Origin: Leptolyngbya sp. PLA1
Lineage (GTDB): Bacteria > Planctomycetota > Phycisphaerae > Phycisphaerales > UBA1924
Direction: 5' to 3'
Assembly (NCBI GenBank): GCA_021405315.1
Contig: QWIH01000013.1
Span: 1-64,000, forward strand
DNA: 64,000 nucleotides
The stretch's first letter is position 1, and each line of letters opens with the position of its first letter. Made by a program: the position numbers and the translations under genes. The notes beneath the pieces are model-generated. The model was not told where the DNA came from and did not search any database. It saw nothing but the letters and a program-made list of their open reading frames with translations. Below, one piece after another: positions 1 through 2,773 of this stretch.

Positions 1-1
1 C

Positions 2-475
2 TCCGGGAAGTCCACGCTGCTTCGCGCCGCCGCGGCGCACGCCCGCACTCTGCGCTGGCGCGTGACCGCTCCGCCGTGGGACCGACCGGGCGCGGCACCA
101 GATCGGCCCGTGATCGACCTTCTGCGCGGCCCGCTCGCGGAGTGCATCGCAAGCCTCGCCCGCGCGGGGCTTGGCGAGCCGGCCCTCTTCGCCCGCACGC
201 CCCGCGAGCTCTCGGAGGGCGAACGCTTCCGCCTTCGCCTTGCTCTGGCGCTGCACGAATCCCAGTCGGACCCCTCCTCCCAGCCTCTGTTGCTCATCGA
301 TGAGTTCGCCAGCGCACTGGACAGGGTCACGGCCCGAACACTCTGCGTGTGCCTGCGACGATGGGCGGCCCGCCACCGGGTGCGCGTGGTGTGCGCCACA
401 GCCCACGACGACGTGGCGGGCTGGCTGAGCCCGGACCTCCGGCTCTCGCTCACTCTCGGGGCGAACCGTGCGTGA
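2..475 (+). CDS. ABC-type ATPase, 5' end outside window
   Basis: The open frame enters from the left edge with the end of a Walker A loop (SGKSTLL) already in frame, so the true start lies upstream. It then shows an ABC-signature-like LSEGERFR, a Walker B plus catalytic Glu (LLLIDEF) followed by a D-loop-like SALD, and a late His (TAHDD) that fits the H-loop. No membrane segment is visible, so this looks like a soluble ABC ATPase rather than a transporter subunit. The stop overlaps the next gene (GNAT fold) by 8 nt, implying co-translation. COG2401 proteins fuse an ABC ATPase to an acetyltransferase domain; here the two are separate adjacent genes. Role unknown; DNA-linked work is inferred from the terminase-like gene downstream. 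Confidence 0.8.
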   Translation, partial: SGKSTLLRAAAAHARTLRWRVTAPPWDRPGAAPDRPVIDLLRGPLAECIASLARAGLGEPALFARTPRELSEGERFRLRLALALHESQSDPSSQPLLLIDEFASALDRVTARTLCVCLRRWAARHRVRVVCATAHDDVAGWLSPDLRLSLTLGANRA

Positions 476-1289
476 CGCGCCCGGTTCCATCGCGCGCGTT
501 GGCATCTCCTCGGGCGCCCACTCCGACCTCGAGGCCCTGCGCAGATTCCACTACTGCTCCGGGAGGCCGAGCCCGCCGGTGCTGGTGCTGCGGGCCCGCG
601 TGGGGCGTGAACTCGCCGGCGTGCTGGTCGTGAGCATGCCCACGCTCAACGGCTGGTGGCGACGAGACGCGTTCGGGCCGGCCTTCGGCTCGCCCGGCCG
701 CGCGAGCGCCGGGAGGCTCAACGCGGCGGTGAGGCTGTTGTCGCGGGTGATCGTCGATCCTCGGTATCGGGGCCTGGGCGTCGGCGCGGCGCTCGTCCGG
801 GCCTATCTGGCCAGGCCGCTCACCCGCTACACGGAGGCGGTCGCGGGGATGGGCGCCTTCTGCCCGCTCTTCACCGCCGCGGGGATGCGCGAGGTGCCTC
901 TCCGCACCCCCGCGCGCGATGCGCGCCTCGCGCGGGCGCTCCGCGCCCTGGGCCTGAGCGCGCACACCCTCGCGGACCCCGTCCTCGCGCGCGTTCGCCT
1001 TCGCGGCAGCGCCACGCTTCGCCGGTCGGTCCGGGCATGGGCCGCCTCCAGCCGCGCCACGCGGGCCCGGGCCGCCGGTCCGCTGGCCCCGTTGCTCCAC
1101 AGCGCCATCAGCCGCCAACTCGCGCCCCCCCGCGTGTACGTGTTCGACGCCGAACGCCCGAGCCGGGCAGGGGGAGACGCATGGAACGCCCACGAAAGCG
1201 GAGGAAGCCTCGCGCCGGGAAGAAGCCCGCCGTCCCGGAATCGCTCCGGCCGATGCCCGGAACGCCCGACGAACTGCACGCCTGGCTGA
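468..1289 (+). CDS. GNAT-fold protein of ABC/terminase-like cassette
   Basis: 273 residues from a GTG that overlaps the upstream ABC gene by 8 nt. The central part has the GNAT acetyl-CoA loop pattern: strand VIVDPRY followed by RGLGVGAALV (about residues 91-108). An early RFHYCSGRP (about residues 24-32) precedes the core. The C-terminal third is Arg/Ala rich. The last 109 nt overlap the start of the terminase-like gene in another frame, an unusually long overlap, so the true end of the functional domain may lie before the tail. Acetyltransferase chemistry is inferred from the fold; substrate unknown. A DNA-base-modifying role like that of phage Mu Mom, which is also GNAT-like, is speculative. 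Confidence 0.75.
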   Translation: MRDAPGSIARVGISSGAHSDLEALRRFHYCSGRPSPPVLVLRARVGRELAGVLVVSMPTLNGWWRRDAFGPAFGSPGRASAGRLNAAVRLLSRVIVDPRYRGLGVGAALVRAYLARPLTRYTEAVAGMGAFCPLFTAAGMREVPLRTPARDARLARALRALGLSAHTLADPVLARVRLRGSATLRRSVRAWAASSRATRARAAGPLAPLLHSAISRQLAPPRVYVFDAERPSRAGGDAWNAHESGGSLAPGRSPPSRNRSGRCPERPTNCTPG

Positions 1290-2773
1290 TCCGTGTGCTG
1301 GGGCTGCGCATCCCCAGGCGGGCCATCACGGAGGGGCACGCATCCCCGTTTGAGTATCTCTCGTGGGCGTTCCTGGGGCCTGAGCAGGGGCCGGACCGCC
1401 CCCTCTGCGATGCGGTGATCTGGGCGAACCGGGGAGGGGGCAAGACGTTCCTGGGCGCGGTCGCGACCGCCCTCGACCTGATCTTCCTCGGCGGCGTGCA
1501 CGTCCGCGTGCTCGGGGGCTCGCTGGATCAGTCCAGGCGCATGTACGCGCACCTCAGGCGACTGTTCGACCCCGACCGGCACCCGGACCTCGCCTCGATG
1601 GTCCGGGGCCGTATCACCGAGCGACGACTCTGCCTTACCAACGGGTCGGAGGTCGAGCTCTTGGCGCAGTCGCAGACCTCCGTGCGGGGCACCCGCGTCC
1701 AGAAGATCCGCTGCGACGAGGTGGACCTCTTCGATCCCCAGGTCTGGGACGCGGTGCAGCTCGCCACGCGCAGCGCCCAGGTGCAGCTCCCCGACGGGTC
1801 CACTCGAACCGTGCGCGGGTCCATCGAGTGCCTCAGCACCATGCACGTGCCCCACGGCGTGATGCACTCGCTCGTCCAGGAGGCCCGCGAAGGCCGACGC
1901 CGACTCTTCCGGTGGGGCGTCATCGACGTTCTGGGTCACTGCGGTCCGGAGCACGCGTGCGCCGACGGCACCGACTCGCCGTGCCCGCTCTGGAACGAAT
2001 GCCGCGGGCGAGCCAAGGCCCGCCCCGAGGACCGCGCCGGACACATCACCATCGAGGACGCCATCGCGCTCAAGCGGCGGGTCTCCCTCCCCGTCTGGGA
2101 AACCGAGATGCTCACGCGGCGCCCGCGCCGGTCGCACGCGGTCTTCCCGGAGTTCGCACGGGCCGTCCACGTCGTGGGCGAAGCGGGACGCGAGCCCGAC
2201 GCCGACGCCACCCTGAGGGCCGGGGCGGTGCTCTGGGTCGCGGGCATGGACTTTGGCATGCGCGGGGCTACCGCCATTCTCTGGGGCGCGCTCGATCGCC
2301 GGGGGGTGCTCTGGATCCTTGACGAGCGCCACATGGAGGGCGTCATCCTGGGCGAGCACGTCGCCGCGATGCAGCGCGGGCTCGAGAGGCCCGGCGTTCC
2401 CGCCTGGCCCCGGCCCGCGTGGACCGCCATCGACCCCTCGGGCCGCTCCGTTGACGGTCAGACGGGCCTGTCGGCGCACGAGGTGCTCAAGCGCGCCGAG
2501 CTGCGCCCCGTCTACACGAACGAGGGCATCTCCGCCGGCATCGCGCAGGTGCGGGCCCGGCTGGCCCCCGCGAGCGGCGACACGCCACGTCTGTTCGTGC
2601 ACGCGCGCTGCGTCAAGCTCATCGAGGCCCTGGAGCGGTACAGCTACCCCAGGCACGACCCGCTGACCGAGAAGCCCGAGAAGGGCGAGTTCGACCACGC
2701 CGCCGATGCGCTGCGATACCTCGTGCGACATCTCGACCGCCCCCGCCCCCAGGCGGCCTCAGGGCTCTATTGA
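1181..2773 (+). CDS. terminase large subunit-like ATPase/nuclease
   Basis: 530 residues from the ATG behind GGGGAG; an open frame runs further upstream but lies over the GNAT gene. The N-terminal ATPase part has Walker A (ANRGGGKT, near residue 85) and Walker B (IRCDEVD, near 178). The C-terminal part has RNase H-like nuclease acidic motifs: GMDFG near 355, AIDPSG, and a final DHAADALRY near 505-513, which is the usual end motif of terminase nucleases. Between them sits a four-cysteine cluster (C254, C260, C268, C274). Terminases package phage DNA into capsids, but no portal, capsid or small-subunit gene is visible here. The partners are an ABC ATPase and a GNAT-fold gene, so a domesticated or non-packaging role is possible. 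Confidence 0.85.
   Translation: MERPRKRRKPRAGKKPAVPESLRPMPGTPDELHAWLIRVLGLRIPRRAITEGHASPFEYLSWAFLGPEQGPDRPLCDAVIWANRGGGKTFLGAVATALDLIFLGGVHVRVLGGSLDQSRRMYAHLRRLFDPDRHPDLASMVRGRITERRLCLTNGSEVELLAQSQTSVRGTRVQKIRCDEVDLFDPQVWDAVQLATRSAQVQLPDGSTRTVRGSIECLSTMHVPHGVMHSLVQEAREGRRRLFRWGVIDVLGHCGPEHACADGTDSPCPLWNECRGRAKARPEDRAGHITIEDAIALKRRVSLPVWETEMLTRRPRRSHAVFPEFARAVHVVGEAGREPDADATLRAGAVLWVAGMDFGMRGATAILWGALDRRGVLWILDERHMEGVILGEHVAAMQRGLERPGVPAWPRPAWTAIDPSGRSVDGQTGLSAHEVLKRAELRPVYTNEGISAGIAQVRARLAPASGDTPRLFVHARCVKLIEALERYSYPRHDPLTEKPEKGEFDHAADALRYLVRHLDRPRPQAASGLY

Follow-up and report, generated by a model that had tools for sequence, protein, structure and literature searches.

Gene transfer agents (GTAs) have been described in PMC9662315 by six attributes: particle genes derived from caudoviricetes, endogenization in the host, often at several loci, mostly vertical inheritance, packaging of mostly random host DNA, a genome of their own that is too large for the head, and the delivery of DNA to cells. 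The three groups classified in that work (RcGTA, BaGTA and BhGTA) come from Alphaproteobacteria and spirochaetes, and no GTA in Phycisphaerae was described in the literature searched; a Zavarzinella prophage whose large terminase subunit (TerL) falls near the RcGTA group is the sole mention in PMC7947584. A second relevant piece of information is found in a passage of PMC7824862 (its reference 136), where a GNAT coupled with an ABC ATPase is predicted to acyl-modify a DNA base, and where the chemistry of this ABC-GNAT modification is called uncharacterised. Both lines meet in the stretch of DNA analysed here, the first 64 kb of contig C47 (QWIH01000013.1, hereafter the window) of genome G000, a planctomycete of the class Phycisphaerae with a genome of 3.4 Mb. 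At the 5' end of the window, three overlapping genes, all on the (+) strand, encode an ABC ATPase, a GNAT-fold protein and TerL.

A first-pass annotation of the window had reported these three co-oriented genes and had proposed a domesticated packaging motor, outside a prophage, that works alongside an ATPase and a modifying enzyme. Profile matches and coordinates agree with the description, and the proposal of domestication has held up. The best explanation of the trio, to which we give a probability of about 72%, is that it forms the DNA-packaging operon of an element of phage origin, inherited from the common ancestor of Phycisphaerae and kept as a dispersed GTA-like system. This explanation builds on what can be read in the sequences, namely the genes themselves, their conservation and co-occurrence, their vertical inheritance, the constraint acting on them and their phage ancestry. 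The class-wide conservation of the operon and of a set of head genes suggests, in turn, that Phycisphaerae make virus-like particles of the GTA kind.

The terminase gene proper spans positions 1181..2773 (+), starting at the ATG at 1181 or, alternatively, at 1253, within an open frame that runs from 656 to 2773. Its profile matches are moderate (Pfam Terminase_6C, 3.1e-7; phrog_2 terminase, 1.6e-11), and no match was obtained with NCBIfam. An alignment of 31 homologous sequences confirms that both catalytic domains are intact, as had been claimed, since the following elements are invariant: the Walker A motif RGGGKT (residues 84-89; 1430..1447, +), D179 and E180, corresponding to Walker B and the catalytic Glu (1715..1720, +), the coupling residues S219-T220, the nuclease residues Asp357 (2249..2251, +) and Asp418 (2432..2434, +), and D505 and D509 of the nuclease motif D505-H506-A-A-D509 (2693..2707, +). 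Four cysteines (C254, C260, C268 and C274; 1940..2002, +), in a zinc-knuckle-like arrangement, are also invariant and are shared with the TerL of the phage contigs L086 and L098. The AlphaFold model of the protein (mean pLDDT 90) matched the complete phage D6E terminase with a Z score of 27.1 over 382 residues. The protein thus combines the features that define a large terminase, that is, a Walker A/B ATPase, an RNase H-like nuclease with its acidic residues and the TerL fold, so that the terminase identity, advanced from the letters alone, is now backed by both profile and structure.

The window begins at the contig end (position 1 of C47), and because of this the N-terminus of the ABC-type ATPase is absent from it; the C-terminal 157 residues are encoded at 1..475 (+), with a Walker A remnant at 2-13, the signature LSEGE at 209-223 and Walker B with the catalytic Glu at 299-304 (all +). 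This protein matches phrog_11143 (4.8e-16) and also phrog_293, and its motifs are invariant in the alignment of ABC homologues (A4). The GNAT-fold protein is encoded at 468..1289 (+), carries the acetyl-CoA motif RxxGxG in SRVIVDPRYRGLGVG, matches phrog_886 (2.9e-7) and presents H28, Y29, R101 and E123 as invariant residues; the published prediction cited above would make it a DNA-base acyl modifier. Its structure model matched the DNA modifier Mom of phage Mu with a Z score of 12.0. General GNATs scored equally high, and the Mom match is therefore compatible with modification without being specific for it. The pairing of ABC ATPase motifs with a GNAT fold corresponds to a COG2401-like ABC-GNAT system, whose modification activity is a prediction. 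The view that here this architecture is split agrees with the occurrence of fused versions in phages and in a second planctomycete family.

The missing side of the locus was found on contig C30 of the same genome, which ends with the other half of the ABC gene. The two contig ends share an 11-base overlap that falls inside the Walker A codons and leaves the reading frame continuous, and the joined protein would have about 215 residues, with the motifs GPSGSGKS, LSEGE and LLIDEF. We infer that C30 and C47 are joined, which is supported by the same contiguous gene order in the sister genome G005. Ahead of the ABC gene, C30 carries a gene for a helix-turn-helix (HTH) protein of 148 residues and, divergently oriented, one for an S24 repressor of 291 residues, beyond which lie genes judged from their sequence to be chromosomal. 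Nothing virion-like (portal, capsid or tail) follows TerL within the window, as the first-pass annotation had noted. As read from gene order, the full operon is a LexA/CI-like S24 repressor, divergent from a series formed by the sigma-r4-like HTH protein, the ABC ATPase, the GNAT, in some genomes a ParB-like protein and a small protein, and TerL. This fullest form, with the ParB-like and the small gene ahead of TerL, occurs in families f3-f7; within the window's family, neither gene was detected in the majority of genomes. The small protein (cl6) gave no match to terminase small subunit profiles; by its position and size it is possibly TerS-like.

The operon is widespread in the class. TerL was found in 35 of 41 related genomes, mostly as a single copy, with strong matches (E<1e-140) in six sampled families of the class (f1 and f5-f9) and weak ones in other classes; genes in these relatives were called by simple open reading frame (ORF) rules. 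Among the GTDB loci with sufficient upstream DNA, HTH, ABC and GNAT genes stand alongside TerL in 59 of 60, the repressor gene is present in 53 of 60, and the two downstream neighbours are the same genes in 32 of 60. In the TerL tree, every host family with several genomes falls on one side of a branch, and the family labels require eight changes, the minimum, compared with 20.5 for shuffled labels (0 of 200 shuffles were as low); the tree of the major capsid protein (MCP), with seven changes, is also at its minimum and fits the host families. This congruence was judged from family labels and so refers to the family level. Comparison of G000 and G005 by the Nei-Gojobori method (own script) yielded dN/dS values of 0.06-0.19 for the five operon genes (0.19 for ABC, 0.17 for GNAT, 0.135 for TerL); over eight genes in all, dN/dS ranged from 0.04 to 0.24. 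By these measures, TerL and MCP track the taxonomy of their hosts, and purifying selection acts on both. An ordinary prophage would be expected to occur sporadically, as a contiguous gene set and at variable sites; this system is nearly universal in the class, has syntenic neighbours and is split into separate loci.

A capsid-less system was what the initial searches suggested, as a portal of PF04860 and a capsid of PF05065 were each found in only 4 of 41 genomes and the portal phrog_12 in 1 of 14. These proved to be the wrong families, and the conclusion was overturned by the finding of an SPP1-type portal (PF05133) in 19 of 20 genomes, with one match each in almost every case. This gene belongs to a conserved cluster with a scaffold (Phage_scaffold PF06810, 1.1e-8) and an SU10-type major capsid protein (SU10_MCP PF17236, 4.6e-88; phrog_1328), followed by about eight conserved genes without a clear family (p2, p4, p5, p7, p8, p12, p18 and p9). 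The window's own genome has the cluster on contig C32 (L331), and in families f5, f6 and f9 it adjoins the same phosphohexomutase (glmM-like) gene. The MCP family was found in 33 of 41 genomes, against 0 of 14 controls; its mean column identity over the class is 71% and its dN/dS 0.038. Across the 41 genomes, 32 have both TerL and MCP, three TerL alone, one MCP alone and five neither (Fisher p=4e-4); all four sampled genomes of family f2 lack both. In families f4 and f5, several genomes have the packaging and head loci on a single contig, at a distance of 9-25 kb. The expectation that the trio is conserved without capsid genes stands in its first part, far beyond the window's genome, and fails in its second at genome scale, and the idea of a system that works without a capsid is not supported.

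Several side observations are worth recording. Portals of PF05136 were considered and set aside, as their occurrence is sporadic (6 of 20 genomes) and they look like ordinary prophages; the two lambda-type genes of this family in G000 (C81:4515-5486 and C83:21261-22235) are probably of this kind and unrelated. A second, weakly matching terminase-like ORF (684 aa) in G005 (C108:6292-6753; L069) has no cassette genes alongside and is perhaps part of a prophage. In G033 (C33:167262-168665; L030), terL carries an in-frame TAA and the capsid gene is also absent, which looks like joint decay. A 39-kb contig of IMG/VR (L392), filed as a virus, bears a head cluster of the Phycisphaerae type from portal to p18, and viral catalogues probably mistake this GTA-like locus for a virus.

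Other results weigh against the reading as a dispersed GTA-like system. The pairing of loci is imperfect: TerL occurs without a capsid in G015, G003 (71% complete) and G033, the first of which also lacks the portal, and G023 has a capsid and no TerL. Profile searches recognized no tail, lysis or receptor-binding protein, several of the conserved capsid-adjoining genes have no profile match, and few genomes of the window's family yielded the ParB-like protein or the small protein (the possible TerS). Most of the genomes are metagenome-assembled, and the operator described below is absent at the head locus.

The repressor provides a hint of how the operon might be controlled. The window's genome encodes two S24 proteins, one LexA-like and the other on C30, and in the two genomes of family f2 examined, both lacking TerL, the sole S24 protein is LexA-like. 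The operon-associated protein has the composition of a LexA/CI-like repressor, namely an HTH and an S24 domain (PF00717, 2.8e-17), with the Ala-Gly cleavage site and the Ser-Lys dyad conserved in 25-26 of 26 sequences. The palindrome GTTCA-N8-TGAAC occurs exactly in 13 of 58 divergent promoter regions and not once in the remaining 892 kb of these loci. A wider regulon was considered and rejected, because the number of operator-like sites away from the operon, genome-wide, is near that expected by chance; therefore, the repressor seems to be dedicated to the packaging operon. As the head locus has no such operator, joint control of both loci would be conjectural.

As for the origin of the system, the phage contigs L393-L396 and L431 bear relatives of TerL and MCP within about 5 kb of each other, and both could therefore have come from a single ancestral phage. 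The first search with GNAT gave no match among named phages. A run of ParB, ABC, GNAT, TerL and portal genes is present in the phages Gordonia NHagos (with ABC and GNAT fused), Pseudomonas hairong and Rhizobium RHph_N1_10, and in L086 and L098 the TerL with the same four cysteines is followed by a portal-like gene, confirmed by profile in L098. The closest phage capsids found are those of the phage-like contigs L390 and L391, which are 54-59% identical to the chromosomal MCP and share almost no neighbours with it. In four IMG/VR contigs (L081, L082, L083 and L122), the TerL relative is split between two genes, which lie several genes apart with a ParB-like gene nearby; one encodes an ATPase of about 310 aa that contains the cysteine stretch, the other a nuclease of about 170-210 aa. 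In another planctomycete class, twelve genomes of family f30 (L249, L252-L261 and L263) have ABC-GNAT, fused in L249, directly before a different TerL lineage (phrog_2, 4e-35), and no related portal was found within about 6 kb; this unit is possibly a second, separately domesticated system.

These findings must be confronted with other explanations. TerL, the ABC ATPase and the GNAT could act on DNA inside the cell, as an SOS-controlled set that serves repair, end processing or segregation and is unconnected with the head genes. Such a role would fit the absence of a portal or capsid adjoining TerL in about 30 neighbourhoods, the dedicated LexA-like repressor, the breaking of the TerL-MCP pairing in G023, G015 and G033, and the f30 units just mentioned. 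However, the genomes concerned also conserve portal, scaffold and capsid genes, and in five genomes these and TerL are jointly absent; moreover, the motifs for translocation and for nuclease action are both invariant, as packaging needs, so that we regard a capsid-independent terminase as unlikely.

That the same genomes encode their own head genes is also difficult to reconcile with an anti-phage or phage-parasite function, in which the operon would modify DNA or capture the heads of invading phages, as in satellite packaging interference. A phage-type module with modification-like enzymes and a weak similarity of the ABC protein to defence ATPases (mads_3) might point to it, but the system is single-copy and vertically inherited across the class, and neither TerL nor GNAT matched any PADLOC defence model; we consider this function quite improbable. 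As to a functionless prophage remnant in decay, the phage origin is clear, and the stop codon in the TerL gene of G033, together with its lack of MCP, is what decay would produce; yet eight genes are under purifying selection (dN/dS 0.038 for MCP), the catalytic residues are intact, and single copies and trees congruent with host families are the rule, all of which leaves very little probability for it. Of the three roles entertained in the first-pass annotation (DNA handling, defence or gene transfer), the evidence favours the last.

Returning to a dispersed GTA-like system, its operation could be envisaged as follows. The repressor would hold the operon off at GTTCA-N8-TGAAC until DNA damage triggered a LexA-type self-cleavage that inactivated it. 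The HTH protein, ABC-GNAT and TerL would then be made, and the HTH protein may switch on the head locus. ABC-GNAT, if the published prediction applies, would acyl-modify DNA before packaging, perhaps protecting it in the recipient, and TerL, judging from its homology and conserved catalytic residues, would cut chromosomal DNA and drive it into the capsid by way of the portal, yielding particles that might deliver host DNA to kin. The complete version of this proposal, a class-wide Phycisphaerae GTA that was independently exapted, marks DNA with an acyl group before packaging and responds to DNA damage by way of its dedicated LexA-like repressor, is put forward tentatively, as a possibility with less than even chances. 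If true, Planctomycetota would possess a GTA that represents an independent exaptation, class-wide and slowly evolving, whose packaging operon, regulator and head genes are already delineated for tests; a route of gene exchange would be available to a large, mostly uncultured bacterial group, and there would be a setting where the predicted ABC-GNAT modification of DNA can be examined.

The comparison with known systems can be drawn at several levels. The closest solved structure to TerL is the D6E large terminase (5oea), which resembles it over both domains with 15% identity; a segment containing the four invariant cysteines is distinctive of the TerL family studied here. The three named phages have the same kinds of genes in near-identical order upstream of TerL; their portal comes directly or a few genes after TerL, whereas in Phycisphaerae it lies at a separate locus. 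The COG2401-like ABC-GNAT system, as presented in the passage of PMC7824862, also pairs an ABC ATPase with a GNAT-superfamily protein, although in Phycisphaerae they are split into two genes. Finally, three of the six GTA attributes of PMC9662315 can be recognized in the sequences: caudoviricete-derived particle genes (TerL, portal, scaffold and MCP, with the tail genes unnamed by profile), endogenization over several loci (separate chromosomal sites, with a single copy in most genomes) and vertical inheritance, or co-diversification with the host, at family level. The likeness to RcGTA, BaGTA and BhGTA, drawn from described attributes, thus concerns head and packaging genes of caudoviricete origin, kept at several loci and transmitted vertically with the host. 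The closest phage relatives of TerL and MCP found are other contigs. The putative Phycisphaerae system belongs to a different phylum, and its packaging operon stands apart from the head cluster, accompanied by ABC, GNAT and HTH genes and by an S24 repressor of its own.
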